From positions 1 to 33,021 of the forward strand of contig JAFNFT010000096.1 in the NCBI GenBank assembly GCA_017885605.1: a stretch of DNA of 33,021 nucleotides, read 5' to 3'. Position 1 is the first letter of the stretch. Each line of letters opens with the position of its first letter. A program made the position numbers and the translations under genes. The DNA comes from Methanobacteriota archaeon. GTDB taxonomy: Archaea > Thermoplasmatota > E2 > DHVEG-1. Under the pieces are notes generated by a model that was not told the origin of the DNA, ran no database searches, and was given only the letters and a program-made list of their open reading frames with translations. Shown one piece after another: positions 4,477-18,083 of the stretch.

Positions 4477-5445
4477 TTACTTTAGTATTTTTTTTTCAAT
4501 TAAATCCTTATATATTTTACAATCATTAGGATCGGAACACCCACTACATTCATCAAAACAATCTTGTAATTTCACTAATGCACAAGGATGTAACTTTCCA
4601 CCAGACTTTATTTTTCCGCATTTACTACAAACCACAGAAAATGTTCTATCGAATCCCTCACACATTCCCTGATAGGAACATCCATCACAGAGAACAATTT
4701 CCTGTATTAGTTTTCCATCCTCTTGTTCAATGTTATTCCATTCTTCAAGAACAGAATCTGTTAAATAACCGTATTCTTGGCAGCCATATATCGGGATATA
4801 ACATAAATCATCCGATTCACAATTATCGCACGAATTTCTCTTTGCAAATAAATATTCTGTAAGGGCTTTTGATAAATTATAATGAAGTGTTAACCGCAAA
4901 ATATCATTTAAAAATTCTTCCATATAATGGAAATCAATCAAATGAACATTTCTTTCAACAGCATAACTTAAACTTCCATCGAATCCTTTATCGGAAACAA
5001 GGATAGGAATTGCAAAATCTATATTATAATTTTTAATAGATAAATCAGCATACTTTTCCATTTTGTCTATCTTTTCTTTCCATTTATCCTCATCTTTATA
5101 ATCATGTATTGTCGCATCAAAAATTAACCGAGTAACAATCCCCCTTGATTCTTGAATTAAACCATCAAACAAATCACTGATAGCACCATCATTAAATATT
5201 TTTTTCCAGTTTTTCTTTAATGTTACACTTGGAAAATATAATTCTTTCACGTCTCTAGGTATATCCCACACAACATCTGGTCGAAGAAATCCACTATCTT
5301 GCTTTTTTAAGTATGGTGTATAATCTAAAAGAACTGTTTTAACATTTTTTTCCTTTTGATATTTTTTAATTCTTCTGTATACTTGAACTTGAAATCGTGC
5401 ATAATCTTTATTTTTTGGTAATATAGCATCAATCAAAGTAATCAC
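4477..5445 (-). CDS. Cysteine-rich protein with an Mrr-like nuclease-fold segment
   Basis: This 322-residue protein has two parts. In the first 200 residues, the stretch IPILVSDKGF followed by a helix and VHLIDF resembles the end of Mrr-like PD-(D/E)XK domains. I cannot find a convincing E-x-K, so activity is uncertain. The C-terminal 120 residues carry many cysteines in pairs (CDNC, CDGC, CSKC, then CSGC), suggesting several metal-binding knuckles. The start is a GTG at 5443-5445 with a TATA-like sequence about 27 bases upstream, so it may be leaderless. It sits among defence-like genes, and its end faces RNA copy A. The nuclease idea is tentative. Confidence 0.7.
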   Translation of the reverse strand: MITLIDAILPKNKDYARFQVQVYRRIKKYQKEKNVKTVLLDYTPYLKKQDSGFLRPDVVWDIPRDVKELYFPSVTLKKNWKKIFNDGAISDLFDGLIQESRGIVTRLIFDATIHDYKDEDKWKEKIDKMEKYADLSIKNYNIDFAIPILVSDKGFDGSLSYAVERNVHLIDFHYMEEFLNDILRLTLHYNLSKALTEYLFAKRNSCDNCESDDLCYIPIYGCQEYGYLTDSVLEEWNNIEQEDGKLIQEIVLCDGCSYQGMCEGFDRTFSVVCSKCGKIKSGGKLHPCALVKLQDCFDECSGCSDPNDCKIYKDLIEKKILK

Positions 5446-5472
5446 AAATGAACAAAAACATAAAACTAATAT

Positions 5473-5598
5473 TTAAAATATGTTTGAACTTGTTTTTCTG
5501 AATATAACACGACGATCAACTAGATCTTCTGCAATAGCAACAGCATTGGGGCCAAATCTGTCAAAAATTATATGAAGATTTTTACAGACCGAGATATA
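5473..5598 (-). pseudogene. Possible C-terminal remnant of a gene
   Basis: On the minus strand an open stretch ends at a TAA (5473-5475) and encodes FDRFGPNAVAIAEDLVDRRV near its end. It reads like protein and is richer in G and C than its surroundings, but no start codon or ribosome site fits. It may be a fragment left by a rearrangement. I do not recognise the parent family. Confidence 0.2.
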
Positions 5599-5641
5599 AA
5601 GATATAGATTAAGCTTATATCTATACTACATATTCTATTTT

Positions 5642-5857
5642 TTGATTGATATGCCATTTAGATTGATACGCTCAACAGGAATGTTAGATAAGTTGCCAAA
5701 AAATCAGAGAAATAAAACGATTTTAAGTTGGATAATATTGTTAAGTGCATTTTTTGCAGGACTATATGTGATATTATCTGGAGCATATCCCGATTCCACA
5801 CAAAAATGGGCATTTGGTATAATTGGGGCAATTATAGGTTATGTCATCGGAAATTAA
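5642..5857 (+). CDS. Small membrane protein, two predicted membrane segments
   Basis: The product is 71 residues: a short basic N-terminal part (KLPKNQRNK), then a membrane segment from ILSWIILLSA, a short loop, and a second from WAFGIIGAIIGYVIG to the end. The frame opens with TTG at 5642; an in-frame ATG at 5651 (MPFRLIRS) is the more conventional start. A TATA-like AGCTTATATCT lies about 27-35 bases upstream, so translation may be leaderless. The function is unknown. It is isolated between the leftward cysteine-rich gene and the small gene at 6001. Confidence 0.55.
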   Translation: MIDMPFRLIRSTGMLDKLPKNQRNKTILSWIILLSAFFAGLYVILSGAYPDSTQKWAFGIIGAIIGYVIGN

Positions 5858-6000
5858 CATATATACTTCAGGAAACTTATTAATTTCATAAAATTATATT
5901 ATCAGAACATTTAAATATCCTTTAATATAATGTAGATATTACCGATTATAATAATTCAAGAAAACAAAAAGTTTGAAATGGTACACAATAGGTATGAAAA

Positions 6001-6177
6001 ATGTTGGGAATAAACGTTAAAAAAGGAGGAAGATACAGGCCTCTTTCTTCTAACGACATAAAATCTGGTCTTAAACAGGCATCGAAATTGGAGATAGAAT
6101 TTGCCGAATTTGATAAACAAATAGATAAAGCCTTAGAAGTAAGTAATAAGACATTACAAAGAACTATAACAATTTGA
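6001..6177 (+). CDS. 58-residue protein directly before the C39-like peptidase
   Basis: This short frame runs from ATG at 6001 to TGA at 6175-6177. It begins MLGINVKKGGRYRPL, then forms a charged, probably helical stretch (SNDIKSGLKQASKLEIEF, and onward to about residue 52). It is soluble with no cysteines. It ends 19 bases before the 526-residue peptidase-like gene and is on the same strand, so the two may be co-transcribed. A small partner or inhibitor of the peptidase is a guess from position. I do not recognise the sequence. Confidence 0.5.
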   Translation: MLGINVKKGGRYRPLSSNDIKSGLKQASKLEIEFAEFDKQIDKALEVSNKTLQRTITI

Positions 6178-6196
6178 TTCTCCTCTGTTTATTATT

Positions 6197-7777
6197 ATGA
6201 CGGATGACGAATGTAATCCTGAGTTAGGTGAAGCCTTCAATATAAATTCTTTTACCGAAGAGAATCTAAAAACGTCTCTTAACAATCCCTTTTTGTTACA
6301 AAGAAAATTTGATAAGAGATTCCCTGAATATTCGCAACATTTCCAGTACTTATATTCTTATCTATCCGATATGAAATGCAAGACCATTCTCCAAGAAAAT
6401 AATTATATTGATAGAGATTATTTGGTTGATTTTGCACATTATTATGTGCGCTGTTTCACTCCATATGGAAGATTAACCAAAAGAATCCATTTTTTTTCAA
6501 AAGAGTTCGATAAACAATTATTTTTATCGGCACTTAATGGGTCAAAGAAGAATATTAATATTATAAAAAAAAATTATATCGGTTTTATTGTGGCCAAACC
6601 CCTGCCTGAGGCGATTATTGGACGTACTCTGTTAGGAACATACGAAAATGGATGTGTACCAACAACAAATAACGCAAAACGTTTTTTTACTTGTGTCTAC
6701 AAACAAAAAATCAATTTATTTGGAATTGATATGGAAATCGAAAGCCTCGAGTATCAAGAACAAGATGCTGTGACTGCGGCGTGTGCTACAAGCGCATTAT
6801 GGTCTGCATTTCACCAAACTGATAAAATCTTTAAAGGAACATGGGCACCAACACCAGTAGAAATTACGGAATCCGCAAACAAATTTTGGCAATTATCAAG
6901 ACCTATACCGAGTAGTGGGTTGACAGTTATGCAAATGTGCCAAGCAATACACGAAGTCGGACTTGAAGCATATGTGCATAGTATCGAAGATCAAAAAGAT
7001 CCCTATATGCATCCTCTAATAAGTTTAATATATGCATATCTCAAAATGGGCGTACCTGTAATATTACATGCTGAAATTAACGGAGATGATCATGCAGTAA
7101 CTTTAAATGGGTATTGTTTGGAAGAAAAACAGCACATACCAAGAGAAGTAAAACGAAATTATCCTTACATTCCACTTGTTGGACGAAGAATTAGTAAATT
7201 TTATGCGCATGATGATCAAATCGGTCCTTTTTGTAAATTAGAAATTGTACAAAAAATTTTAGACCCATATAAAATTGAAAAATATTTACATTCGTATAAA
7301 AAAATATTGACATACGAACCCATTTCGATTATTGTCCCTCTTTATACAAAAATAAGAGTAGTTTTCCTAGACGTATTCAGATGGGTAAAAAAATTTCATG
7401 ATTTTCTAAAAGCATTCAATAGGATTATAGAAACAAACATTGAATGGAATATTTATCTCTGTGAATTAAATACTTTTAGAAATCAAGTTCTCTCAGGAAG
7501 ATTATATAAACAAGATCGTTCAAGACTTTTAAGAAAAAGTTTACCACATTATATATGGAGAATAGAACTTAATACGTTGGATGGAAATAAAATTCTTGAA
7601 ATCATTGCAGATGCAACTGATATGAAGCGCTCTTTCTTTTTTAAGGATATGGTTTATTTTAATTCCCAATTTAAAACTGACATACACAATCTATTAAATG
7701 ACCGTCAGGTTAGAACTGGATATGAACATGTTCTTACTGAAAAATTGTTTAATTTTCTTTTTGAAACCTCACAATAA
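6197..7777 (+). CDS. C39-like (papain-fold) cysteine peptidase-like protein, cytoplasmic
   Basis: The 526-residue protein carries papain-fold signatures: an oxyanion-type QEQD at 187-190, a likely catalytic Cys196 in VTAACATSALWSA, and a likely catalytic His299 in DDHAVTLNGY. The third catalytic residue is unclear. The first 125 residues look like a separate helical domain, then IGFIVAKPLP and IIGRTLLGTY lead into the peptidase domain. The C-terminal 200 residues are alpha/beta of unknown type. It has no signal peptide or transporter partner, so it is unlikely to process exported leader peptides. Position among restriction and nuclease genes suggests a defence role, by inference. The start ATG at 6197 follows the 58-residue gene by 19 bases. 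Confidence 0.65.
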   Translation: MTDDECNPELGEAFNINSFTEENLKTSLNNPFLLQRKFDKRFPEYSQHFQYLYSYLSDMKCKTILQENNYIDRDYLVDFAHYYVRCFTPYGRLTKRIHFFSKEFDKQLFLSALNGSKKNINIIKKNYIGFIVAKPLPEAIIGRTLLGTYENGCVPTTNNAKRFFTCVYKQKINLFGIDMEIESLEYQEQDAVTAACATSALWSAFHQTDKIFKGTWAPTPVEITESANKFWQLSRPIPSSGLTVMQMCQAIHEVGLEAYVHSIEDQKDPYMHPLISLIYAYLKMGVPVILHAEINGDDHAVTLNGYCLEEKQHIPREVKRNYPYIPLVGRRISKFYAHDDQIGPFCKLEIVQKILDPYKIEKYLHSYKKILTYEPISIIVPLYTKIRVVFLDVFRWVKKFHDFLKAFNRIIETNIEWNIYLCELNTFRNQVLSGRLYKQDRSRLLRKSLPHYIWRIELNTLDGNKILEIIADATDMKRSFFFKDMVYFNSQFKTDIHNLLNDRQVRTGYEHVLTEKLFNFLFETSQ

Positions 7778-7896
7778 TCCATGCAAAAATCACTTAATGT
7801 TTCAGGACAGAAATTCTACCTCTTAGGTAAAATACATCCCGCGTCGACCATACATTTTCGATAGATATTTATACAATGAACTTTGGTTTTTCAATC

Positions 7897-7950
7897 ATGG
7901 TTGGAAGAAAACTCACTGAGAAAGACATCAACGAGATTCATAACTATTAA
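7897..7950 (+). pseudogene. Truncated third copy of the double-HTH regulator
   Basis: ATG at 7897 opens MVGRKLTEKDINEIHNY and stops at a TAA after 17 residues. The first 14 codons match the start of the 12287 gene (MVRRKLTEKDIKEI) at 12 of 14 positions. The upstream TTTTTCAATCATGGTT is shared with the 10192 gene, and a TATA box (ATTTATACAA, from 7867) is in place. The rest of the gene is absent, so this is a promoter plus amino-terminal remnant of the family. Confidence 0.7.
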
Positions 7951-7977
7951 AAACAAGTGAAAATACTTTAATAATTA

Positions 7978-8442
7978 TTAATCTAATAATTTGTTTTCAT
8001 TTAATTTATCCCAAGCTTTTTTTATTTCATTTTTTGAAAATTTAGGTTTTCTTCGGTGCAGAGCATCAATAGTTTCATCCATATCGAAATTACAATTTTT
8101 TCTAATGTAAAGTATAGATGCAAATAATTCTATCTCATCAATATTTGGCTTGGTAATTTTAAAAAAATCTATCGCAGTTTTAAATATTTTTTCATTTTCC
8201 TCTGATTTAAACTCAATTAATTCTAAATTACTTGTATCATTTATCTTATAAAGATTAGTTGCTAAATCTGATGAATATGGACCATACACATACCATTTAA
8301 ATTTATATCCAAGATCTAAGCCAAATCCTTTTTGAAGGATATAACAAATTTTTTGAGCAAATAATCTGTCCTCAAAATTATTAGAATCAAATTCTTTAAT
8401 ACGTTTTAACAGTCCGAAAATTGCCTCACTCTTATTGCTCAT
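7978..8442 (-). CDS. YwgA/Panacea (DUF4065)-like protein
   Basis: This 154-residue soluble protein has the pattern of YwgA- and Panacea-type proteins: an N-terminal helix, then RLFAQKICYILQ, then LGYKFKWYVYGPYSSDLA (residues about 42-60). The family is known from SocA-like antitoxins and from mobile elements. The C-terminal half is helical and charged. ATG at 8442 lies about 25 bases downstream of a minus-strand TATA (near 8464-8472), so translation is probably leaderless. No matching toxin is obvious next to it. It is convergent with the regulator remnant at 7897. The family call is moderate. Confidence 0.6.
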   Translation of the reverse strand: MSNKSEAIFGLLKRIKEFDSNNFEDRLFAQKICYILQKGFGLDLGYKFKWYVYGPYSSDLATNLYKINDTSNLELIEFKSEENEKIFKTAIDFFKITKPNIDEIELFASILYIRKNCNFDMDETIDALHRRKPKFSKNEIKKAWDKLNENKLLD

Positions 8443-8563
8443 ATATCTTGATAAACCTAAGTTATTTATAAGAATTTCGATAATCTTATAAAGAATTATT
8501 CTATTAAATAATGAAAAATTCTTTTTTAGAATATTTTTATTACGAAAAGCGGAATGTAAAATT

Positions 8564-8575
8564 GGTTTATAAACC
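8564..8575. promoter_or_regulatory. Palindromic TATA element GGTTTATAAACC
   Basis: A perfect 12-base palindrome is centred on TTATAA in the 231-base gap between the 7978 and 8674 genes. Being symmetric, it could act as a TATA box in either direction or bind a regulator. The rightward run begins about 100 bases downstream with its own GAGG site. Confidence 0.35.
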
Positions 8576-8673
8576 TTTGTTTTTCAAAATTTTATAGATA
8601 TAAACATTTTTAACATAAAGCTTAAATATCATTTGCATTCTATTACTATTGAGGTGAAAGAAAGAGGTTTAAT

Positions 8674-8916
8674 ATGGAGGATTATGAATTATTAATTTTT
8701 TGGCTTATTATGTCTCTATCTGTTGTTATTGCTTTATATAACTGGATAAGTACAAAACGGTTTAAAGAATTTAATAGATTATTATTTGAATTTTCTGAAG
8801 GTCAAGAATATTATTTTGATAAACTAAATACTAAAATTATAAAACTTGGAAATGAAGTTTTAAAGTTAAAAAAACAATTAGAAGAATCGATAAATCAAAG
8901 GGAGAAAAAAAAATGA
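8674..8916 (+). CDS. Small membrane-anchored coiled-coil protein
   Basis: The 80-residue product has one N-terminal membrane segment (LLIFWLIMSLSVVIALYNWI), then a charged helix from about residue 27 to the end with coiled-coil character (NTKIIKLGNEVLKLKKQLEE). The start is supported by GAGG about 8 bases before the ATG. Its stop overlaps the next start by four bases (ATGA), so it is probably translationally coupled to the 8913 gene. It is the first gene of a four-gene run that includes an HNH nuclease. The family is unknown. Confidence 0.65.
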   Translation: MEDYELLIFWLIMSLSVVIALYNWISTKRFKEFNRLLFEFSEGQEYYFDKLNTKIIKLGNEVLKLKKQLEESINQREKKK

Positions 8917-9230
8917 TTGAGGTTTCACCTGAATTGGCTTTATTATCTGCGAGCGTACCATTCTTGGTTGCGTTAGTAACCTTAATAGATAAATTAAATC
9001 TAAAAGGAATATTCATGATATCCTTCTATTGTATTGAAATACTAACATTTGGAAGTACAATAATATTTATTGTGTTAAAATGGTTTGGATGGGAAAATAG
9101 TATTTATTTTTATTCTTTTATAATTGCTATGATTTTCCTAATATTATTTGCAATAGTATATCCTATATCAAAAAAATGTGGTTACTCTTGGTCATTACAA
9201 AAACAAAAACCTCCAAAAGAAAACATTTGA
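8913..9230 (+). CDS. Small membrane protein, about three membrane segments
   Basis: This 105-residue protein has hydrophobic segments at about 7-24, 33-57 and 64-88, then a basic tail (KKCGYSWSLQKQKPPKENI). It starts four bases inside the preceding gene, with GGGAG just upstream. Its last 53 bases overlap the HNH gene in the +1 frame, across runs of A. The overlap is unusually long for simple coupling. The family is unknown. It probably acts at the membrane with the 8674 product. Confidence 0.6.
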   Translation: MIEVSPELALLSASVPFLVALVTLIDKLNLKGIFMISFYCIEILTFGSTIIFIVLKWFGWENSIYFYSFIIAMIFLILFAIVYPISKKCGYSWSLQKQKPPKENI

Positions 9231-9480
9231 TGAACAAACCATTGAAGCTGTGTGGAATAAGGCAAAAATACAACCTGGCTTTACATCATTCAGATCAGAT
9301 GTTTGTGGTACTGATATTCAACGATCAGAGTATGGAAAAGAATCAAAATATGGATGGGAAATAGATCATATAAATCCTGGTGCAAATGGGGGCACAGACG
9401 ATCTTAGTAATTTACAACCTCTTCATTGGGAAACCAATATGATGAAAGCAGATACCTATCCTTGGAAATGTCCTGGATGA
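9178..9480 (+). CDS. Small HNH endonuclease
   Basis: The 100-residue frame contains a clear HNH core: GWEIDHINPG, then GGTDDLSNLQPLHWETN. This matches the widespread small stand-alone HNH proteins that start shortly before a KTFDEQTIEAVWNKA-like helix. The only available start is GTG at 9178, inside the preceding gene and without a ribosome site, so either the start is weak or the domain is reached by a +1 shift from the 8913 frame. Asp, His and Asn of the motif are present, so it is likely an active nuclease. Position in the 8674-10024 run suggests a membrane-associated effector. Confidence 0.75.
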   Translation: MVTLGHYKNKNLQKKTFDEQTIEAVWNKAKIQPGFTSFRSDVCGTDIQRSEYGKESKYGWEIDHINPGANGGTDDLSNLQPLHWETNMMKADTYPWKCPG

Positions 9481-9532
9481 TTATTCAAATTATTAATTAT
9501 TTCAAGAGATATGATTTGAGGATGGTGAAAAA

Positions 9533-10024
9533 ATGATAGATGAAAAGATAAGAAAACAGGCTGAAGAGACCGTTAAAGGGATTATAAAAGGGACCAACAC
9601 CTATGGGAGAGTTGAATTATCCATTGTCCATTTCAGAGAACGATATAGACTTGTCGGTGATATTGGAATAAGCGCAAGTGTTGGTCAACTAATACGTATT
9701 GTTGAAGACCGAAAAAGACTCAAAGATACTATAGTTGGAATTATTTGGTTAAAAATACCTAGGTCACCTGAACAAAACGACTATCTAATCGCTTTTGAAT
9801 TGGATTATTGGGGGGATCTCAATAACACTATCTATTATATCTGTGGAGGAATGACTGATCATTCAGGAGAAGGGGGACGAGCTTATAATGCAATGAAATT
9901 CTATATTGAACGATACAACGATATCCCTGTCACTACAATTATTCTTAAAGATTACCCTGTAGAAAATTTTAATAACTCAAAAGATTTAATCAACTATCTT
10001 GATAAGAAACTAATTATGAAGTGA
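9533..10024 (+). CDS. Unrecognised 163-residue protein at the end of the HNH run
   Basis: The start ATG has GAGGATGG about 8 bases upstream. The protein looks alpha/beta and soluble: an N-terminal helix (IRKQAEETVKGIIKG), strands near VELSIVHF and DTIVGIIWLKIP, and a glycine-rich loop (GGMTDHSGEGG, about 118-128). I see no known catalytic motif. It follows the HNH gene by 52 bases on the same strand and may be an immunity or specificity partner, by position only. Confidence 0.65.
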   Translation: MIDEKIRKQAEETVKGIIKGTNTYGRVELSIVHFRERYRLVGDIGISASVGQLIRIVEDRKRLKDTIVGIIWLKIPRSPEQNDYLIAFELDYWGDLNNTIYYICGGMTDHSGEGGRAYNAMKFYIERYNDIPVTTIILKDYPVENFNNSKDLINYLDKKLIMK

Positions 10025-10083
10025 AACAAGAAAATCTGTTAAAGCTTAAGATACCTAATAAGTCACATAAATAAAAAATAATT

Positions 10084-10142
10084 ATTGTGCAAAATGCTGG
10101 TTTATTGTGCAATTTCCGTGTTAACACGGATTAATGTGCAAA
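10084..10142 (+). promoter_or_regulatory. Operator-like array: three direct repeats around a 16-base palindrome
   Basis: ATTGTGCAA occurs at 10084-10092 and 10104-10112, and a close variant (AATGTGCAA) begins at 10133. The spacings are 20 and 29 bases. Between the second and third lies the perfect palindrome TCCGTGTTAACACGGA (10115-10130). The array ends about 20 bases before the TATA box of the 10192 regulator. It is absent before the paralogue at 12287. It is a likely binding site for the regulator itself or another factor; an origin-like iteron role is less likely without a replication gene nearby. Confidence 0.55.
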
Positions 10143-10161
10143 GCCCTGTTTTTCAATATGC

Positions 10162-10169
10162 TTTTATAC
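10162..10169 (+). promoter_or_regulatory. TATA box for the 10192 regulator
   Basis: TTTTATAC is centred about 27 bases before the ATG at 10192, so the transcript probably starts at or very near the start codon. The same arrangement is seen for the 12287 copy (CTTTAAATA, from about 12255) and the 7897 remnant. Confidence 0.55.
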
Positions 10170-10191
10170 TAGTGGTTTTGCTTTTTCAATC

Positions 10192-10926
10192 ATGGTTGCT
10201 ACAAAACTCACCGAAGAAGATCTTGATAGGATAAAAGAAGCGATAAAAAAAGGAGTAAGCACTAAATTATTAGCTGAAAAATATGGGGTTGACCGGTCAA
10301 CGATCCAGAAAAGAGCTAAGGATGTCCTGTCCATAAAGAAGATACCATTGGAAACGAAAAATAAAGTCATCAAAGCGATCAAAGAAGGAGCTACCAAAGC
10401 TGAGGCTGCACAGATGTACGGATTGAACATAGGAACCGTGTATAACCTCACCAGGGGCATTGTAGAGGGTCATCATATCCAGGGGAACCATATCATTCGC
10501 AAGAACGGCATACGGCTTCTGAACAGGCTTATGACCGACGGTTTCTTAGTCTCTGATTTCGTGGTCTCTACTGTCCGAAATCTTCAGATGAAGTTCCCTG
10601 TCATCAAATCAGCAAGATACAGAGATAAAACCTTCTTCTATCTTCCGGGGCGAGAAGAGGAAGCCATAGAGGCTTTCTTCAAGGAGAAACCAGATCGTAT
10701 CATCAGCTACAGTTCTGTTGAGGAGATGGCGTTCCTCCTTGGTGTGAAGATATCCAAGGAGGATCGGAGAAACCTTGTAGATCGGTACAAGCATAAGCAT
10801 GCGCAATATTGGGAATCCAGACGATTGATCCAGAGGCGATTGGAGGATTTCGTCCCTGACTTGGAGTATGTTCCTGTTTCTGAATGGGCTGAACCAAGCT
10901 TCCGTTTATTTCCTAAAAACAAATGA
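10192..10926 (+). CDS. Double helix-turn-helix regulator, copy 1
   Basis: The 244-residue protein has two HTH segments. HTH1 (about 4-43) has the LAEKYGVDRSTIQKRAK pattern, and HTH2 (51-89) contains AEAAQMYGLNIGTVYNLTRG. The remaining 150 residues form a domain I do not recognise, with FPVIKSARYRDKTFFYLPG and YKHKHAQYWESRRLIQRRLE. The paralogue at 12287 differs at only 14 of about 193 aligned positions from residue 51 onward, but only 21 of the first 50 residues are identical. The gene is richer in G and C than its surroundings. ATG at 10192 is probably leaderless, and the operator-like array upstream suggests autoregulation. Confidence 0.75.
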   Translation: MVATKLTEEDLDRIKEAIKKGVSTKLLAEKYGVDRSTIQKRAKDVLSIKKIPLETKNKVIKAIKEGATKAEAAQMYGLNIGTVYNLTRGIVEGHHIQGNHIIRKNGIRLLNRLMTDGFLVSDFVVSTVRNLQMKFPVIKSARYRDKTFFYLPGREEEAIEAFFKEKPDRIISYSSVEEMAFLLGVKISKEDRRNLVDRYKHKHAQYWESRRLIQRRLEDFVPDLEYVPVSEWAEPSFRLFPKNK

Positions 10927-10954
10927 TAAACATTTGTTATTGTGGTCGGACATA

Positions 10955-11647
10955 CTAATTGTCATTGATAATATCATATATATCGATAGTATTTTGTCCA
11001 TTTGTAAATAGAATGCCCGTCTGGTCTGTATTTAATGTTAAAATATTAGATAAAGACTGTTCGTTCAAATTACCAATAAGATTCATTTGATCAGAAGTGA
11101 AACACCTTATAGGGAATGTTTCATCTATTGTTTTAGAGAAGTAAGTTATACCATCCCAAACCCATTGTGCTCCATTCCAATCAAAAGACGCCATATCATA
11201 TAACGTTTCGACAATATGTATATTATAACGCCCTTTTGGAACATTTATCATAGGACTATGGACAAAAACTGTTGGTAGACTTCCTTCATAGATTTCAAAA
11301 TATACATGACCCGTATCTATAAAAACAATTGGATTCCCGCCGTTAATTGGTATAAGTTCAACTATATCATGATATATCCCTTCAAACTTTCTACCAGAAC
11401 CAGGATAACCAAAATTAACCTCTAAAGAAGCAGAATAATCTCCTGTTTCAATGACGTCATCCCATTCTCTTATGTAAAAGACATCGTGATTTCCCTGGCA
11501 ATAAGCGTAGTTATGTAAATAAACAAGTTCTGTACCTCTTTCATTTACCAATGCAGGTTGTCCTCCTACTGGTAAAACATATAGTGTTCCACTGAATAAA
11601 ATAATTATCATAAAACATGTTCCAATTTCTACAATTTTGTTTTTCAT
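10955..11647 (-). CDS. Secreted protein, family unknown
   Basis: The start is set at the ATG at 11645-11647 (MKNKIVEI), with GGAGG 11 bases upstream on the minus strand; a further upstream ATG overlaps that site. The first 30 residues form a signal peptide (basic MKNK, then a hydrophobic stretch through FMIIILFSGTLYVLPV). The mature part is about 200 residues, beta-rich, with aromatic and glycine-rich segments (FNGAQ-type loops, VHSPMINVPKGRYNI), and resembles an extracellular beta-sandwich. No repeat or metal motif stands out. It is probably surface-exposed or released. Confidence 0.65.
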   Translation of the reverse strand: MKNKIVEIGTCFMIIILFSGTLYVLPVGGQPALVNERGTELVYLHNYAYCQGNHDVFYIREWDDVIETGDYSASLEVNFGYPGSGRKFEGIYHDIVELIPINGGNPIVFIDTGHVYFEIYEGSLPTVFVHSPMINVPKGRYNIHIVETLYDMASFDWNGAQWVWDGITYFSKTIDETFPIRCFTSDQMNLIGNLNEQSLSNILTLNTDQTGILFTNGQNTIDIYDIINDN

Positions 11648-11795
11648 ATTCCTTAATTCCTCCATATTAATAACAGAATGAGTATTAATATATCATGTCC
11701 ATATATTTAAATATGTTGAAACGATAAAATTATGTGGATTGGTTTTTTAAAGAAAGAAACAATATATGAAAGATTATCAAAGAGGGTGTTAAGAA

Positions 11796-12215
11796 TTGGC
11801 AGAAAAAAAAGTTGAGTTCAAAAAAACAGACTTATTCGATCTACTATTGGATTTTTATAAAGTAGCAACTGCAGAGAGTCAAAGTATTGGAACACAAAGA
11901 ATGAGACTTATAGCAGGTAGTATAGTGGGAGTCACTGTACTTTTTGCGTTCTTAAATTTTACCAATAATAATATTTTATTAGTGGGGTTTATGCTTACGC
12001 TTGTTATTACATTGTTTATCCTCATTGGTGTTGAATATATTATTTTAACACGAGTTGGTCATCAACATGAGGTAACGGCTTTGTTAATAGAAGAATTTAT
12101 TCAAGAATATCTTGAAAAGGGGAAAACTGAAGAGGAACTCAAAAAAGAGATAGTAAAAAGATTACCTTATTCAAAAATAAAATTAATTAAAAAATTCAAA
12201 CAAAAATATTCATAA
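11796..12215 (+). CDS. Small membrane protein with charged C-terminal helix
   Basis: The 139-residue protein has a charged N terminus, two membrane segments (about 41-60 and 65-88), then a charged cytoplasmic helix from HQHEVTALLIEEFIQEYLEK that ends in a lysine-rich tail. The start is a TTG at 11796 with a GAGG-like site 5 to 10 bases upstream; there is no nearby in-frame ATG. The family is unknown. It stands alone between the secreted-protein gene and the second regulator. Confidence 0.55.
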   Translation: MAEKKVEFKKTDLFDLLLDFYKVATAESQSIGTQRMRLIAGSIVGVTVLFAFLNFTNNNILLVGFMLTLVITLFILIGVEYIILTRVGHQHEVTALLIEEFIQEYLEKGKTEEELKKEIVKRLPYSKIKLIKKFKQKYS

Positions 12216-12286
12216 CAAAATGAAACAACTAATTACAAAACCTACTTTTCAACATCTTTAAATATCAGTGACCTCGATTTTTAATC

Positions 12287-13042
12287 ATGGTCAGAAGAAA
12301 ACTTACTGAGAAAGATATCAAAGAGATACAAGATCTCCTTCAACAGGGACATGACGTCCCCGAGCTTGCTGTAAGATATGGTGTGAGCAGATCGGTAATC
12401 TATCGGAGGGCGAAGGATCCCTATATCGCACGAGGAATCCCATTAGAAACCAGGAATAAGGTCATTAAAGCAATCGAAGAGGGCTATACGAAGGCTGAAG
12501 CGGCGCAGATGTACGGGTTGAACATAGGAACCGTCTATAACCTCACAAGGGGCATTGTAGAAGGCCATCATACCCAGGGGAATCATATCATTCGCAAGAA
12601 TGGGATAATGCTTCTGAATAGGCTTATGACCGATGGTTACTTGGTCTCTGATTTCGTGGTCTCCACTGTCCGTAATCTTCAGATGAAGTTCCCTGTCATC
12701 AAATCAGCGAGATATAGGGATAAAACCTTCTTTTTCCTCCCTGGGCGAGAAGAGGAAACCATTGAGGCGTTTTTCAAGGAGAAGGCAGACCGCATCATCA
12801 GCTACAGCTCTGTTGAGGAGATGGCGTTCCTCCTTGGGGTCAAGATATCCAAGGAGGACCAGAGAAACCTTGTGGATCGGTACAAGCACAAGCATACGCA
12901 GTATTGGGAGTCCAGAAGACTTATCCAGAGGCGGTTGGAGGATTTCGTCCCTGATCTCGAATATACTCCGGTGTCTGAGTGGGCTGAGCTAAGCTTCCGA
13001 TTATTCCCTAAAAACCAGGAGGAAAATATTTATAAACCATGA
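12287..13042 (+). CDS. Double helix-turn-helix regulator, copy 2
   Basis: This 251-residue paralogue of the 10192 protein shares its layout. HTH1 (LAVRYGVSRSVIYRRAK) is divergent, while HTH2 and the C-terminal domain are almost identical, and the tail has a short extension (EENIYKP). Nucleotide identity is also high over the shared part, which suggests recent duplication or conversion. The TATA-like CTTTAAATA is about 28 bases before the ATG, consistent with a leaderless transcript. It lacks the repeats and palindrome present before copy 1. The differing first HTH may give different DNA targets. Confidence 0.75.
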   Translation: MVRRKLTEKDIKEIQDLLQQGHDVPELAVRYGVSRSVIYRRAKDPYIARGIPLETRNKVIKAIEEGYTKAEAAQMYGLNIGTVYNLTRGIVEGHHTQGNHIIRKNGIMLLNRLMTDGYLVSDFVVSTVRNLQMKFPVIKSARYRDKTFFFLPGREEETIEAFFKEKADRIISYSSVEEMAFLLGVKISKEDQRNLVDRYKHKHTQYWESRRLIQRRLEDFVPDLEYTPVSEWAELSFRLFPKNQEENIYKP

Positions 13043-13101
13043 TGGGAGGTTCTGTGTAATATAGCATTGGGAAATCAGAGTTGGTGAAATCGGTTGGTAT
13101 A

Positions 13102-13533
13102 TCAGTTCTCGTTGTGCTTGCTATTCTTTATGATACTTACGACTCTTTGAAAAAGGTCATGAGATTTCCTATTCATAATAAAAATCAATATCTGTGGTAA
13201 AACAAAAACAAGGATGAGCATTGTAACAATCCCAACTTCAACAAGTCCAAAAAATACAATTAAAATTAATTCTAATAGAATAAAGGGAGAAACGACTATC
13301 AGCATTACCAGACCAAGAGACGGTGCTCTTGGAATAACTGTACAAATAGTTTTGCCGTTCTTCTCTCGATAATTAATTATGCAACCCCTAAAACGGTCTT
13401 GCATGATTTTAATGTTATTCCAAGGTCGGTTAGTCTCTTTCAACTCGTAACGATACGTCGAGCCAAGTTCCTTCTCAACCATATCTTTAATTTCTTTCCC
13501 TTTTACGACCTTATTAAACTGAAACTTTTCCAT
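13102..13533 (-). CDS. Membrane protein, about 143 residues
   Basis: The start is set at the ATG at 13531-13533 (MEKFQF), with GGAGG six bases upstream on the minus strand. The first 70 residues are soluble and charged (KGKEIKDMVEKELGSTY), followed by two hydrophobic segments (about 80-102 and 104-126) and a basic tail ending in SKHNEN. I recognise no family. Its stop lies 60 bases from the end of the convergent regulator at 12287. Confidence 0.6.
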   Translation of the reverse strand: MEKFQFNKVVKGKEIKDMVEKELGSTYRYELKETNRPWNNIKIMQDRFRGCIINYREKNGKTICTVIPRAPSLGLVMLIVVSPFILLELILIVFFGLVEVGIVTMLILVFVLPQILIFIMNRKSHDLFQRVVSIIKNSKHNEN

Positions 13534-13661
13534 ATAATTCCTCCTCAATATTATGGTTTTTATGCTATTTGTTATTTTTAAAGGTAATATAAAGATATCT
13601 AAAATTACAGTAATCAACTATTCTTTATTCTATTTAGTATTAACACAAAGATATGAAATAA

Positions 13662-13674
13662 AACCGTGTCAATG
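13662..13674 (+). repeat. Direct repeat AACCGTGTCAATG, left copy
   Basis: This 13-base string recurs exactly at 16212-16224. A shorter piece, TGTCAATGCTT, is at 14766-14776 and 16217-16227. The two full copies enclose the leftward 76-residue and thymidylate kinase genes and the rightward TPR gene, all between 13.7 and 16.2 kb. They could be traces of an insertion or recombination unit, or chance. Confidence 0.35.
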
Positions 13675-13727
13675 ATTATTGATAATATGAAAAAAGAGAA
13701 AACGTATTCCTTAATTCTCTATCTCCA

Positions 13728-13958
13728 TTATATCGAATTAATATTCTTCATCTCTATAAGATACTGGCATTTTCCTGTAAAAGCATCAACGCAAAATGGT
13801 TCGCACTCTGTCTTATAACTACTTTTAAAACAATATTTTTTAAATAAATCTTGTTCAATTGTTTTTACTTCTTTTGTAAATTCGCTCGGATTTTCTATCT
13901 TTAATCTTTTTAGATGAGCGATTTGTTCATTACTGATAGACAACGAACTTCCCTTCAT
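13728..13958 (-). CDS. Small cysteine-containing protein downstream of thymidylate kinase
   Basis: The 76-residue protein begins MKGSSLSISNEQIAHLKRL and has four cysteines in the second half (KYCF, ECEPFC, KCQY), a spacing that could bind a metal. It starts 29 bases inside the end of the thymidylate kinase gene, so it is probably translated from the same transcript. I do not recognise the family. A regulator or partner of the kinase is a guess. Confidence 0.55.
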   Translation of the reverse strand: MKGSSLSISNEQIAHLKRLKIENPSEFTKEVKTIEQDLFKKYCFKSSYKTECEPFCVDAFTGKCQYLIEMKNINSI

Positions 13959-14598
13959 TGTATAATTTTTTTTTTAATTCTGGTTCAACTATTTCTTTTA
14001 TTGTACGGAAAACATCTTGTGAATTTTTAAGATGGTCACCCTCTATTATATGGAGGTTAGGGTAATCTTTCATATCAAGAAAAATTTTTCTGACCTTCTC
14101 CAGATACTCCTTCTTTTCAAAAGAATTACAGGTATCTCCTCTGCCATTTATCCTTTTAATACCGATCTGCGGAGTGACATCTAGTATTATTGTGACATCT
14201 GGGATAGGCGCAAATTCTTCATTAATTTTTTTAATGTAATTTTTATCAATTCCTAATGCACTCTGATAAGCGATGGTTGAAAAATAATATCTGTCCATAA
14301 TTACGATATTATTATCTTCGAGATTTGGTCGTATTCTCTTTTCTACATTTTCTTTTCTATCCTCAATGAACAGATTGAGTTCATATTCAGGAGTGTATTT
14401 TAAGTGGTCGAAAAATCTATGCTCACTACGGCTCCGTATTTCCCTCGCGTATTTACCATCCTTCGATGGCTCTTTAATAACTATCGAAGAAAAACCTTCG
14501 GAGAGCAACCAATCATTTAATAACTTACATTGAGTAGTTTTTCCCGCTCCATCTATGCCATCGATAGCAATTAAAAAACCTTCTGCTAACTGTGGCAT
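13930..14598 (-). CDS. tmk: Thymidylate kinase
   Basis: This enzyme phosphorylates dTMP to dTDP with ATP for DNA synthesis. The 222-residue length is typical. The P-loop is GIDGAGKTT (14-22), the substrate-binding DRYYFSTIAYQ spans 102-112, and a lid-like segment (RINGRGDTCNSFEKK) is around residue 150. ATG at 14598 is preceded by GGGGAG on the minus strand. The gene is AT-rich like the accessory region and is followed by the overlapping 76-residue gene. It may be a second, acquired copy or the only one; the window cannot tell. Confidence 0.85.
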   Translation of the reverse strand: MPQLAEGFLIAIDGIDGAGKTTQCKLLNDWLLSEGFSSIVIKEPSKDGKYAREIRSRSEHRFFDHLKYTPEYELNLFIEDRKENVEKRIRPNLEDNNIVIMDRYYFSTIAYQSALGIDKNYIKKINEEFAPIPDVTIILDVTPQIGIKRINGRGDTCNSFEKKEYLEKVRKIFLDMKDYPNLHIIEGDHLKNSQDVFRTIKEIVEPELKKKLYNEGKFVVYQ

Positions 14599-14844
14599 AA
14601 TATTTTACTCCCCATGATGATATTCCCTGGTAGTCTCCTTCCCTTCATCGGTATCCCGTATATGAATTTACTGTTAATAAATATATCACTTTATTGTATT
14701 TTTTAATATTAGCTCGTATAAGATTATTTTTACTGTAAATCATTAACAATATATAATAAGAATCATGTCAATGCTTTCCTTTAGGAGGATATGTTTTTAA
14801 AGAATTGATTGTTACAAAACAACGGAGTGGAGGCAAAGGTTTTG

Positions 14845-16113
14845 ATGAAATGTACACATTGTGGGAGAAAAATCGGTGTTTTTGAAACAAGGTATAAATG
14901 GGTGGGGAAAAAAAGAGCGGTGTGTACTGAGTGTTATAAAAAACATTTGAATGAATCCCCAGAAAAACAAGAACAATGGGAGATTGAGGCAAAAGAGAGC
15001 GAAAAACAACCTTTTAAAGATACAGAAAAAAGAAAACAAACGTCTCCAACAGTTCTTGAACGGACGGAAAGAAAATCGGATAGAAATTGGAGAATTTTAT
15101 CATTTTTAATAGGGTGCGGCTTATCATTGGAGAGCGCAGGGATAGCATCGAGTGTAACATCAATGCTTAATAATCCATTCAAGGTTCAATATATTCCAGG
15201 ATGGATAGTGAAAACCTGGATTGATTATAAGCTTGTCTCAGTTGAAGATTTATATGCGATGCCAATATATTTTTATTTCCACTATTTTATGGCGGGTGTT
15301 GTTGTTAGCTGTTTATTATTTGTTTGGGCATTGAGACCGGGTAGAGGTTTTCGCAACTGGCGACTTACCATTCTTATCCTTTTCTTCGGATCGGCAATGA
15401 CCGTATTTTCTATTTGGGGTTCATATTGGGCGATGCAGTTAGAACATTCATTAGGTTCAATGCTTGGGCAATTCTTACTTTATGCTCCTTTTGGCCTTGT
15501 GGGAATCATTAGTATTATCAACGTGGTGTTTTGGCGACAAATTAACGAATACTATTTAAAGATAGGATTAGGATTGAGCATAATAGTTCCTGTTGCGATT
15601 TATTCATATACCAGTTATTTTTTTAATTACGATTTTTTATTTGTTCTAATGGTTATTTCTTTGTGTATTAGCCTATCGGTTGTCTTTTTTACTTTGGTTT
15701 TGACTAAGAAGCCGATTGCTATATACAAAAAAGCTGTTCAACGAAAACCAGAAGACGCTAAGGCACATTTCGACCTTGGAAATGCACTTTTAAGAGAACG
15801 TCTTTTTGATGATGCAATTACTGAGTATAAAAAAGTCCTTGAATTAAAACCAGACTATGCTGAAGCATATAATGGACTAGGGACGGTCTTGATTTGGAAA
15901 GGTCTATATATTGAGGCAATCAACGGTTTTAAAAAAGCAGTAGAACTAAAATCTGACTATATTGAAGCATGGAATAACTTAGGTATTATGTATGAAGATC
16001 TAGGGCAATATGAAAAAGCGGTTGAAGCTTATGATGAATCAATAAAGTTACTGCCATTTTTAAATCCAGCAAAAGCTAACAAACAAGAGATACTTGATAG
16101 AAAAAAAAGATGA
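14845..16113 (+). CDS. Zinc-ribbon, multi-spanning membrane protein with C-terminal TPR repeats
   Basis: The start is set at ATG 14845 (MKCTHCGRK), with GGAGG upstream; the frame stays open further upstream without a better site. The protein is about 422 residues. An N-terminal CxxC pair with a second CxxC (CTHC, CTEC) forms a zinc ribbon, followed by a charged linker. About six hydrophobic segments follow between residues 80 and 290. The last 130 residues hold three to four TPR repeats (DAKAHFDLGNALL, EAYNGLGTVLIWKG, EAWNNLGIMYEDLG), normally protein-protein interaction surfaces. A scaffold or signalling role is inferred. Confidence 0.7.
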   Translation: MKCTHCGRKIGVFETRYKWVGKKRAVCTECYKKHLNESPEKQEQWEIEAKESEKQPFKDTEKRKQTSPTVLERTERKSDRNWRILSFLIGCGLSLESAGIASSVTSMLNNPFKVQYIPGWIVKTWIDYKLVSVEDLYAMPIYFYFHYFMAGVVVSCLLFVWALRPGRGFRNWRLTILILFFGSAMTVFSIWGSYWAMQLEHSLGSMLGQFLLYAPFGLVGIISIINVVFWRQINEYYLKIGLGLSIIVPVAIYSYTSYFFNYDFLFVLMVISLCISLSVVFFTLVLTKKPIAIYKKAVQRKPEDAKAHFDLGNALLRERLFDDAITEYKKVLELKPDYAEAYNGLGTVLIWKGLYIEAINGFKKAVELKSDYIEAWNNLGIMYEDLGQYEKAVEAYDESIKLLPFLNPAKANKQEILDRKKR

Positions 16114-16140
16114 ACCTTAAAAGAATGTGAAAAAATGACT

Positions 16141-16164
16141 AGGTCAGCGATATAATGACCTTTT
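16141..16164 (+). terminator. Terminator-like hairpin after the TPR gene
   Basis: AGGTCA (16141-16146) pairs with TGACCT (16156-16161) around a nine-base loop, followed directly by T residues. It lies 28 bases after the TPR gene stop. Confidence 0.45.
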
Positions 16165-16211
16165 GATATGGGTGAATATCGACAACTGTTCAGAAGATAT
16201 AAGAAGTAAGT

Positions 16212-16224
16212 AACCGTGTCAATG
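16212..16224 (+). repeat. Direct repeat AACCGTGTCAATG, right copy
   Basis: This is an exact second copy of the 13-base string at 13662-13674. It is followed by CTT, as in the shorter copy at 14766. Confidence 0.35.
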
Positions 16225-16297
16225 CTTGTTCGATATATGTGATTTGTGTAATTTGAGTTTGTAAACACTTTTAAAAACACATTGTATACATCTCTAT

Positions 16298-16384
16298 GGT
16301 CTCCCCTTATTACGTTGTTCACCAAACTACGTAAATGTAGGAGACTTCTAACAGGATTAGTTTTCTACCAAAAGGGGGGAGACC
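16298..16384 (+). ncRNA. Candidate structured RNA, unrelated layout (stem-closed, own TATA box)
   Basis: The ends GGTCTCCCC (16298-16306) and GGGGAGACC (16376-16384) pair perfectly over nine bases. Within, TTACGT (16310-16315) can pair with ACGTAA (16329-16334), or CTAC (16327-16330) with GTAG (16337-16340), and CTAA with TTAG around a short loop. A TATA-like TTTTAAAAA (16269-16277) is centred about 25 bases before the first G. No reading frame fits. The 353-base gap 16114-16465 otherwise holds the hairpin at 16141 and the direct repeat at 16212. A DNA inverted repeat without transcription is possible. Confidence 0.4.
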
Positions 16385-16465
16385 AAAAACTTTAATCTGT
16401 TGCCAAAATAACTATATTTAATAAAAAGTCAAATAGAAGAATGATATATCATAGAACTTGATTTC

Positions 16466-16711
16466 ATGTATAAAGTAAAAAATACATTTGAACCTAAACT
16501 TAATTTATTTTGGATTTTAATTATTATTCTCTCTGTTATTGTTTTTATTTCCTATCTTCTAATTATTGTTTTTCCCCTTATAGAAATACCTCATTCCATT
16601 TATAAATATGGAATAGGATTGATTATTGTACTTTTAATCTTAAAATTTTTCATTTTTGTTTATAATAAAATAAAAAAATTTATTTTATGTTTTTCTTATA
16701 TCTTCTCTTAA
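16466..16711 (+). CDS. Small hydrophobic membrane protein
   Basis: This 81-residue protein is dominated by two membrane segments (about 14-38 and 49-66) with a basic patch (YNKIKKF). ATG at 16466 is about 24 bases after a TATA-like GATATATCA, so the transcript may be leaderless. The gene sits between the RNA candidates at 16298 and 16762. Its size and hydrophobicity recall membrane toxins of type I systems, but it has no recognised family and the idea rests on position. Confidence 0.5.
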   Translation: MYKVKNTFEPKLNLFWILIIILSVIVFISYLLIIVFPLIEIPHSIYKYGIGLIIVLLILKFFIFVYNKIKKFILCFSYIFS

Positions 16712-16730
16712 AAAATAACAGAAGGAAAAC

Positions 16731-16740
16731 ATTTATAAAT
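16731..16740 (+). promoter_or_regulatory. TATA box for structured RNA copy B
   Basis: ATTTATAAAT is centred 26-27 bases before G16762, the first base of the perfect outer stem of copy B. This is the textbook archaeal distance and supports transcription of the element from its stem end. Confidence 0.6.
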
Positions 16741-16761
16741 AATAATAGGATAATATTTCTT

Positions 16762-16861
16762 GGGGAGTCAAATAAAGAGATATATCCGTGAAATCGTTTT
16801 CTTCCCAGACAACGCGTTCAAATAATTGTATCTATCTTTTTCTCCCAGACATAGACTCCCC
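16762..16861 (+). ncRNA. Candidate structured RNA, copy B of a repeated family
   Basis: The 100-base element is closed by GGGGAGTC (16762-16769) and GACTCCCC (16854-16861), eight perfect pairs. An inner stem pairs AGATATAT (16778-16785) with ATCTATCT (16830-16837), with one mismatch. TCCCAGAC appears at 16803-16810 and 16843-16850, exactly as in copy A, and the loop motif GCGTTC follows the first. Copy A at 4338 matches over most of its length apart from a roughly 8-base indel in the loop. A strong TATA box lies at the right distance. The Lrp gene starts 90 bases downstream with its own TATA-like sequence. A small mobile element remains possible. Confidence 0.6.
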
Positions 16862-16951
16862 TAAACCTTCTATCTCTGATTCTCTTTTCAACGAACCGGG
16901 GGGCAAATCATTTTTAAGGAAAGAACAGTTACCAAAACTCCAATTATCAGG

Positions 16952-17479
16952 ATGAATGATATGGCGAAAACAAGTAAGAAACAGATAGATAAGGATATGA
17001 AGCGGACCATGGCAGAGCTGGAGAGGAACTCAAATGAAAACCTTGATGCACTCGCGAAGCGGTTGAAGTTCTCACGGCAGAAGATCTGGAGGTTTGTCAA
17101 GATCCTGGAAAAGAGCAAGGCCATCTGGGGATATACGGCTGTTATTGACAATGAAAGGAGATCGTTGATAGGCTATACGCTGATGCTGAAACGGTCAATG
17201 AAACCGATAGATGAAAAGACCCTAGATGCATTCACATCACAGGAGACACAAGATGCTCTCGGTGTGACCATTGAGAGTTTGTGCTATGTGCATGGTGAGT
17301 ACGACTGGATCCTTTCCTTCACGGCCTCAGATATCAAGATGGCGAAGAGGTTCTATGAAACATTACTGACAACATATCCAGGGGTGTTTGAGCGAGCGAG
17401 CCTATTAGAGACCCTTGTTGCTGTAAGGGATCACCATATCGCTAATCCGAATGTAAAAAAGCTGAAGGAATTTTTGTAA
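16952..17479 (+). CDS. Lrp/AsnC-family transcriptional regulator
   Basis: The 175-residue protein has a winged HTH at about residues 20-58 (NLDALAKRLKFSRQKIWRFVKILE) and then an Lrp-type ligand-binding (RAM) domain, with YVHGEYDWILSFTASDIKMA near 110-130. Lrp proteins bind DNA as dimers or octamers and respond to small molecules, often amino acids; the ligand here is unknown. ATG at 16952 has a weak site, and a second ATG is at 16961. The gene is richer in G and C than its neighbours. It lies between RNA copies B and C, an unusual position that may be functional. Confidence 0.8.
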   Translation: MNDMAKTSKKQIDKDMKRTMAELERNSNENLDALAKRLKFSRQKIWRFVKILEKSKAIWGYTAVIDNERRSLIGYTLMLKRSMKPIDEKTLDAFTSQETQDALGVTIESLCYVHGEYDWILSFTASDIKMAKRFYETLLTTYPGVFERASLLETLVAVRDHHIANPNVKKLKEFL

Positions 17480-17499
17480 CAGGTCTTACTATTTTAAGT

Positions 17500-17572
17500 G
17501 GAGAATAACCGTTCTTTCCATACGTATCCAACACTTTTTATCCTGCCTTTTTTTCCCTAGACCGGACTCCCC
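17500..17572 (+). ncRNA. Decayed copy C of the repeated RNA family
   Basis: The 3' end CCCTAGACCGGACTCCCC (17555-17572) matches copies A and B around CCCAGAC and GACTCCC, and the T-rich stretch before it is also shared. The 5' outer strand (GGGGAGTC) is missing, replaced by AAGTGGAGAA, so the closing stem cannot form fully. It starts 20 bases after the Lrp stop codon. A divergent relative or a degenerate copy are both possible. Confidence 0.3.
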
Positions 17573-17627
17573 AATACTTTCCGCATTCTCGTTGTTGTTA
17601 GATGAAGTTACCGCCCCTTATAAATAT

Positions 17628-18083
17628 CTATATTTCCTCTCCTTGTTGAAGTTCTACTGCTGTCGTATAGTAAGGTGGTTCATCTTTAGCTAACCATCCA
17701 ATATTTCCCCAGCGCTTGTAAAGTGCCATGTAAAAAGAATTGGGATATTGAACTTGAAGAATCACATTAGCAACATACCATCCAGGTCCAGATCCAGTGT
17801 TGTCATGAGAAAGTTCGATGTAAGATTTGCGGAGTTCGCCAAGTGTCATATTCGTCTTAAAATAGTATGTATCGGTATCACCCCTTTCAAAATCGTTATA
17901 ACCGGCGTAATCCAAATCGAACCTCTTTGCACCAATCAACAGTCTAACGTTTGCATCAGTACCTGCTTTTGGTACGTTGCCAGTGGTAATAGTAACTGCA
18001 ATCGCTACTATTTTTTGATTAACTGGCTTATTTTGAGTAATCCTCTCATAGGTTTTCAATTTATACTTTATAGGTTTTGGCAT
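17628..18083 (-). CDS. PLAT/LH2 domain protein
   Basis: This 151-residue protein is almost entirely a PLAT (LH2) beta-sandwich: VTITTGNVPKAGTDANVRLL, then YNDFERGDTDTYYF, LGELRKSYIELSHDNTGSGP and GWYVANVILQVQYP. PLAT domains bind lipids or proteins and are best known from lipoxygenases and lipases. Here there is no catalytic domain and no signal peptide. The start ATG at 18081-18083 is preceded by GAGGAGG on the minus strand. The C-terminal 40 residues are aromatic-rich. Its partner is unknown. Confidence 0.75.
   Translation of the reverse strand: MPKPIKYKLKTYERITQNKPVNQKIVAIAVTITTGNVPKAGTDANVRLLIGAKRFDLDYAGYNDFERGDTDTYYFKTNMTLGELRKSYIELSHDNTGSGPGWYVANVILQVQYPNSFYMALYKRWGNIGWLAKDEPPYYTTAVELQQGEEI

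Follow-up and report, generated by a model that had tools for sequence, protein, structure and literature searches.

Divergence of the first helix-turn-helix unit on a conserved core in two paralogous archaeal proteins suggests exchange of DNA-reading modules

Archaeal helix-turn-helix (HTH) regulators have mostly been studied as single-HTH dimers, while in restriction-modification the target-recognition domains of HsdS are swapped by recombination on a conserved scaffold. Tandem HTHs occur in Cbp1 and Cbp2, which bind CRISPR (clustered regularly interspaced short palindromic repeats) arrays in Sulfolobales and Desulfurococcales; Cbp1 has three duplicated HTHs and Cbp2 has two, and these lie 5′ to 3′ along the DNA (PMC10883916). 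In the TnsD/TniQ selectors of Tn7-like transposons, the target is chosen through diverse C-terminal regions that contain several HTH domains (PMC10293859). Here, two paralogous genes, A and B, were compared, which are located in a window (the whole stretch of DNA that was analyzed) of 33,021 nt from a Methanobacteriota archaeon (Thermoplasmatota; E2; DHVEG-1; assembly GCA_017885605.1, contig JAFNFT010000096.1). We consider, with moderate confidence, that A and B are modular transcription regulators with a common, self-directed promoter, and that their targets change when HTH units are exchanged on the conserved core. The genes and their parts, with nonsynonymous and synonymous divergence abbreviated as dN and dS, are the following:

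10192..10926, + strand: regulator A, 244 aa, ATG start, intact; first HTH unit (HTH1) at residues 1–50, second (HTH2) at 51–95, predicted winged-helix part at 96–152, helical C-terminal part at 153–219
10192..10341, + strand: HTH1 of A, the divergent module; 21/50 identity with B, dS saturated
12287..13042, + strand: regulator B, 251 aa, ATG start, intact; architecture as in A
12287..12436, + strand: HTH1 of B; clusters with the copy of the same-genus genome G001 (24/29 residues; ultrafast bootstrap, UFBoot, 90)
12437..12571, + strand: HTH2 of B, unit type as HTH1; Pfam HTH_23/HTH_28 matches and a match to the hidden Markov model (HMM) of the unit
12572..12943, + strand: C-terminal domain of B, conserved and family-defining (predicted winged helix plus helices); matches the A4 profile, no recurrent Pfam match

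The family of A and B appears to be a lineage-specific archaeal one, in which a variable number of HTH units precedes a conserved winged-helix domain at the C-terminus. It resembles Cbp1 and Cbp2 in being archaeal and in its tandem HTHs derived from duplication (PMC10883916), but it differs in having one to six units, in the C-terminal domain that follows them, in that its genomes mostly lack Cas1, and in the promoter element, apparently self-directed, that its genes have in common. The small trihelical units, tandem in several of these systems, are also reminiscent of Hin, the bipartite DNA-binding domain of Tc3, the Pax paired domain, and c-Myb R2R3. Unlike resolvase- or transposase-type HTH proteins, A and B contain no catalytic domain by Pfam, and the family has a variable unit number and a different C-terminal domain. 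In contrast to TnsD/TniQ, there is neither a TniQ core nor a conserved partnership with transposase genes, and no recurrent transposase partner was seen in the part of the 19 context sequences that was viewed. The likeness to HsdS consists in the exchange of DNA-recognition modules on a fixed scaffold, while the difference is that the A/B family consists of HTH-array proteins.

The sequence-only reading of this DNA had counted 14 differences between A and B from residue 51 on and 21 identities in the first 50 residues, and an ungapped comparison returned the same values, with 21/50 residues identical in 1–50 and 180/194 in 51–244. The DNA identity was 0.50 in codons 1–50 and 0.86 in codons 51–244, and the best single change point between the proteins was residue 50, with a log-likelihood ratio (LLR) of 29.4, the largest among 66 pairs of relatives. 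Using the NG86 method, dN was 0.63 in codons 1–50, where dS was saturated and not estimable, while in codons 51–244 dN was 0.04 and dS was 0.80. Because the silent sites are saturated in HTH1 while dS is about 0.8 elsewhere, faster protein evolution alone is insufficient to explain the contrast between A and B. The GC content at third codon positions of A was 0.36 in HTH1 and 0.52 in the rest of the gene. The nearest HTH1 neighbours of A were found at loci L013 and L012 (identity 0.50–0.52), and either A or B could be the recombinant.

In A and B, each half of the N-terminal region had general HTH matches in Pfam (HTH_23, HTH_28, HTH_7), and the curated cut-off was exceeded by HTH_28 in A (32.4 bits) and by HTH_23 in B (34.4 bits), both of which are general domain families uninformative on function. 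The unit HMM detected two HTH units in each protein. The AlphaFold2 (AF2) models of A and B agreed in secondary structure, with three helices in residues 8–43, three helices in residues 53–86, a helix-strand-helix-hairpin at about 97–150 resembling a winged helix, and helices in residues 155–219; these models, obtained from 5 sequences each and with a mean pLDDT of 65.4 (A) and 59.6 (B), are too weak for firm fold assignment. The helix pattern suggests that the divergent block is the entire first HTH unit, and that the A/B junction at residue 50 falls in the predicted linker between the HTHs. The base composition of A and B (GC 0.44 and 0.47) is like that of the right part of the window (0.45 in 20001–33021), though both genes lie inside the AT-rich island (0.32 in 1–20000).

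The nearest relative of the pair is a broken copy (L010) in the same-genus genome G001. In residues 22–50 this copy matches B at 24/29 positions and A at 12/29, while in the core, where the A-B identity is 0.91–0.94, it is about equally far from both (0.74–0.88). Maximum-likelihood trees grouped B with the G001 copy in residues 22–50 (UFBoot 90), and A with B in residues 103–219 (UFBoot 99). The 13-row alignment contained no fragments (G001, G002, G025, G027, G062, and others), and the G001 copy was used as two separate pieces. L043, the protein of which is identical to that of L008, was dropped from the alignments, while L016, truncated at a contig edge, was left out of the 12-sequence module-tree test and the change-point count and kept in other alignments and trees. 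Across the family, the trees of HTH1, HTH2, the winged-helix part, and the C-terminal part mutually rejected one another, and the summed cross delta-lnL (log-likelihood difference) between module trees of 12 relatives was 834, as compared to 205–382 when the same columns were partitioned at random (16 partitions). A change point with LLR>4 was detected in 51/66 pairs, while 100 column shuffles averaged 5.3 such pairs and reached 21 at most; nearly half of the observed change points (24/51) were located at residues 50–59. The protein of L042 is a mosaic, in which HTH1 is closest to B (0.60), HTH2 to L013 (0.80), and the C-terminal part to L008 (0.94), while L041 and L008 are similar in HTH1 (0.72) and dissimilar in HTH2 (0.51). 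The mosaicism also affects HTH2 and the winged-helix part, and includes members from different genera. Even divergence along the gene, which the sequence-only reading had named as refuting its proposal, was not found in the larger alignment, as judged from the entropy profile and the change points.

Several observations weigh against this modular reading of A and B. In the approximately unbiased (AU) test, A and B as sisters in HTH1 were not rejected at the 5% level, either with 12 sequences without the G001 copy (p-AU 0.099) or, when this grouping was constrained with the G001 copy included, over the 29 columns of residues 22–50 (p-AU 0.07), and the grouping of A with B against the G001 copy in the core was not significant (AU 0.27). 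The silent-codon identity at shared residues was 10/21 in HTH1 versus 122/180 in the rest (Fisher p 0.09). Across the family the HTH1 entropy was 0.84–1.5 bits per ten-residue block, as compared to about 0.2–1.0 in residues 51–220, and since HTH1 is thus more variable in general, part of the contrast reflects rate. Some relatives are nearly alike in HTH1 (42/50 between L040 and L049). Additionally, A and B share the family promoter described below despite their different first HTHs, so HTH1 may not decide auto-regulation. When the silent sites, the G001 copy, the module-tree conflict, and the change points are taken together, the exchange of modules has good support in the family and is probable for A and B. 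The proposal that the first HTH is exchanged on a conserved core is supported by the dS contrast, the G001 copy, and the conflict of module trees, with two reservations: mosaicism extends to HTH2 and the winged-helix part, and the A/B topology test alone is marginal (p-AU 0.099 and 0.07). That exchange of the first HTH gives new DNA specificity is plausible.

We infer that the proteins bind DNA, regulate their own genes, and change targets by unit exchange. Each HTH unit of about 45 residues would read a stretch of DNA, with the units arranged in a row along the site, by analogy to Cbp1. Recombination or gene conversion between paralogues would homogenise the HTH2-core part, and a different first unit would be left in place or brought in, so that one core would be offered different DNA specificities. 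The shared TTTTCAA promoter could then serve auto- and cross-regulation together with the control of a few other genes.

The family is centred on one archaeal family of Thermoplasmata. The A4 profile of the C-terminal domain, the underlying alignment of which includes A (4.1e-38) and B (5.9e-38), found members in 36/389 genomes of the phylum sample, and 29 of these 36 are among the 45 genomes of the window's own archaeal family; the relatives named in record titles are metagenome-assembled genomes of Thermoplasmata/Thermoplasmatota and Euryarchaeota. Among 64 distinct proteins, three of which start at a contig edge, one HTH unit was detected in 35, two in 22, three in 1, four in 3, six in 1, and none in 2. 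The units lie ahead of the conserved C-terminal domain, most commonly at a spacing of 45–46 aa, and the six-unit member of 429 aa is encoded in the same genome as A and B (L003:916-2202; G000, contig C59). The conserved domain, about 120 residues long in A and B, had no recurrent Pfam match among family members and no credible sequence match in PDB, where the search gave weak matches only. The other members in this genome, at 4 places, are distant (21–28% identity) and on other contigs, and the suggestion that the family is spread across the island therefore holds for A, B, and a remnant only. Close copies are often broken (G001, G002, G025, G027, G062, G063, G064). No description of the (HTH)n plus C-terminal domain family, its variable unit number, or its exchange was found in the literature searched, which mostly did not extend to subscription papers. 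The family is regarded as new, while the tandem-HTH principle is already known from Cbp1.

The promoters of A and B are organized as follows:

10149..10191, + strand: promoter of A; TTTTTCAAT, then the TATA box, another TTTTTCAAT 33 bp from the first, and ATG; start probably leaderless
12245..12286, + strand: promoter of B; TTTTCAACA, TATA box, TTTTTAATC, ATG

The two TTTTTCAAT copies, 33 bp apart, flank the TATA box of A. Most close members have TTTTCAAYA immediately 5′ of the TATA box and a TTTTTCAAT-like sequence directly before the ATG, and the second, start-proximal copy is TTTTTCAA-like in most of them. In all close members viewed the TATA box is about 31 bp ahead of the ATG, which suggests that the transcripts are probably leaderless. 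The TTTC[AC][AGT] element was present at -46 to -34 in 9/12 close members and in 0/10 other TATA-bearing open reading frames (ORFs) of the context loci, and also in 22/47 distant members (shuffles mean 1.7, max 7), hence it is not universal. A promoter model, R1, was built from 10 members and the remnant at 7897, and it gave 47 matches at E<=0.001 in 45 genomes; 11 of these matches were training sequences. The remaining 36, sorted manually, comprised 3 close members, 9 distant members, 3 remnants with promoter plus start (L178, L087:4424-4478, L166), 15 matches before other sequence, and 6 unclassified. Among the 15 matches, 8 preceded a TTGGTTTTTTAAAGAAAGA-like leader, 5 a CCCTTTTTATCC leader, and 2 a small MKYxMEQGKQL protein. 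Promoter matches outside family members occurred in 14/29 genomes with the family and 1/16 without it (Fisher p 0.007; a hand count in which completeness and kinship were uncontrolled). Conservation of the promoter at about 25% protein identity argues for selection on it, and suggests auto- and cross-regulation through the shared TTTTCAA promoter. Such regulation is the simplest cause of this conservation, while a common third regulator would be equally adequate. The idea that promoter variants track the HTH1 type was rejected, as by eye the type of HTH1 did not match whether the start region was TTGCGG-like or TTTCG-like. The TTGGTTTTTTAAAGAAAGA leader also follows a family-type promoter before several unrelated small genes (11739-11757 in the window; L171, L170, L169, L179, L165, L168, L180, L101). 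It has 6 copies in G000 at <=2 mismatches, as compared to 0 for the reversed control, and it is possibly a structured or regulatory 5′ leader.

Two further elements were located ahead of A:

10082..10141, + strand: A-specific array, candidate operator; TTATTGTGCAA twice, TTAATGTGCAA, and palindrome TCCGTGTTAACACGGA between
7849..7941, + strand: remnant with family promoter and about 15 B-type codons, then unrelated sequence; R1 45.3 bits (but in training set)

The array of repeats near 10084 noticed in the sequence-only reading is real, with TTATTGTGCAA at 10082 and 10102, TTAATGTGCAA at 10131, and the 16-bp palindrome TCCGTGTTAACACGGA at 10115-10130. It lies 50–110 bp ahead of A only, and the TTGTGCAA pair was found in one place in the four same-genus genomes searched, which is the promoter of A. 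The element common to the whole family (TTTTCAA 5′ of TATA) is a different one. The array is a fair candidate for a site read by the HTH1 of A itself. In the remnant at 7897, about 15 codons are preserved together with the TATA box and the start context TTTTTCAATC, and the earlier assignment of it to the B type agrees with its identity to B (38/45 bases, 12/15 residues) versus A (29/45 bases, 8/15 residues). Family promoters without an intact family gene were seen at 7849-7941 in the window and at L178 (G063:C55:2796-2845), L087:4424-4478, L166 (G063:C56:3376-3417), L100 (G064:C35:21732-21777), and L101:458-506. Some of these orphan promoters have 10–30 codons of HTH1 left and others have none, and they could be deletion scars or cases of promoter capture by other genes.

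In five genera a close member lies upstream of, and co-directional with, a TctA gene (PF01970 in the window). In four of them (window, L089, L090, L091) the genes after TctA are DUF2240, one without a name, and pyruvate phosphate dikinase (PPDK), and then, where the contig continues, pyruvoyl-dependent arginine decarboxylase, while L097 shows TctA only. The recurrent position upstream of the TctA-DUF2240-PPDK block points to a resident regulator rather than cargo. Extra dispersed copies were found elsewhere (G064, G065, G063, G011).

These data bear on several other explanations. It is quite possible, though we would not call it probable, that A and B result from concerted evolution only, in which gene conversion recopies residues 51 to the end between old, distinct paralogues without selection for new specificity. 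In keeping with this explanation, the two genes are directly oriented at a distance of 2 kb and their shared part is 86% identical in DNA, and the copy of G001 groups with B in HTH1 but falls outside A+B in the core. However, it leaves both the mosaicism across different genera and the variable unit number unexplained, and unit exchange was partly seen between single-copy genomes. Plain duplication without exchange, after which the first HTH in one of the copies evolved fast or under positive selection, is rather unlikely. It would fit the faster HTH1 of the whole family and the failure to reject A and B as sisters there, but not the saturation of silent sites in HTH1, the greater closeness of the first unit of B to the G001 copy (24/29) than to A (the copy matches A at 12/29), the strong conflict of module trees among relatives, or the mosaic HTH2 and winged-helix parts.

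The proteins could also be accessory DNA-binding factors, for targeting or replication, of a transposon or integrated element, the decay of which would leave fragments. The broken copies listed above and the promoter-only remnants are consistent with this, as is the resemblance of the HTH units to the domains with which recombinases and transposases bind DNA (Hin, Z 7.3 over 49 residues; Tc3, Z 6.2). The c-Myb complex 1h88 gave Z 6.7 (91 residues, 4.4 A), and Z values of this size are common for unrelated helical models. We regard such a role as quite improbable, given that no conserved partner gene was seen across contexts (terminal repeats were not searched for) and that the site upstream of the TctA-DUF2240-PPDK block recurs in five genera. 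A phage origin was rejected, because protein B had no tblastn match in 50,697 phage records, and none was found by its peptide patterns in IMG/VR, in a scan that reaches close relatives only; these negatives also speak against the element role. Binding of CRISPR repeats in the manner of Cbp1, with three duplicated HTHs, and Cbp2, with two (PMC10883916), is suggested by the best Foldseek match of model A, a weak one (E 0.079, prob 0.97) to 2lvs, an NMR structure that has CRISPR repeat binding protein as its title; for 2lvs Z was 5.6 and the phmmer E was 0.38. No match of either AF2 model reached E<=0.001 in Foldseek, and the VIA list, from which the Z values come, covers mainly residues 1–93, so no conclusion was drawn about how the C-terminal domain folds. 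Cas1 was detected in only 2 of the archaeal family's 45 genomes, of which one has the A/B family and the other lacks it, it was not found in this genome (91% complete), and there was no CRISPR-like array in the 218 sequences examined. These counts make a Cbp1/Cbp2-like role highly unlikely, and as a general role it was rejected.

One further gene lies between A and B:

10955..11665, - strand: secreted-type protein, no Pfam match

A near-match to the TTTTCAACA/TATA element is located at 11704-11722, upstream of this gene, which suggests, weakly, that it is a possible target of the family regulators. Dispersed copies at L087, L088, L092, L093, L095, L097, and L103 lie amid many secreted or lipoprotein genes. 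In the TctA-family gene of the window (20300-21470) the N-terminal part is apparently in another frame, and the 300-aa ORF covers only profile positions 126–422. The left part of the window contains a gene like Type IIG restriction enzyme-methyltransferases (131-3499; PADLOC REase_MTase_IIG 6.9e-47), a small protein matching part of the DarG model (7978-8442; 1.4e-11) with no DarT neighbour recognised, and an HNH endonuclease-like ORF (9178-9480; PF01844) overlapping a membrane protein gene. A defence role of A and B themselves was considered and set aside, as PADLOC gave only sub-domain HTH matches (mad1, E 1.4e-4 and 7.6e-6 over 23–24 residues; CARF3, E 0.0058, for A), which were not used as evidence.

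More tentatively, the family could be an evolvable DNA-reading system, in which one to six HTH units are set on a fixed C-terminal effector, their number and order are altered by recombination, the members form one cross-regulated network through a common operator, and promoter-plus-HTH1 remnants are scars of, or donors for, exchange. Such a system would be comparable in principle to zinc-finger and TALE arrays. If the modular reading is true, the family would let one study directly the way in which exchange of modules shapes the evolution of DNA specificity, and it could yield a code relating unit sequence to site, with A and B, as a natural HTH1-swapped pair, providing a ready-made experiment. 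The trading of modules may be a natural route to regulators with new targets.

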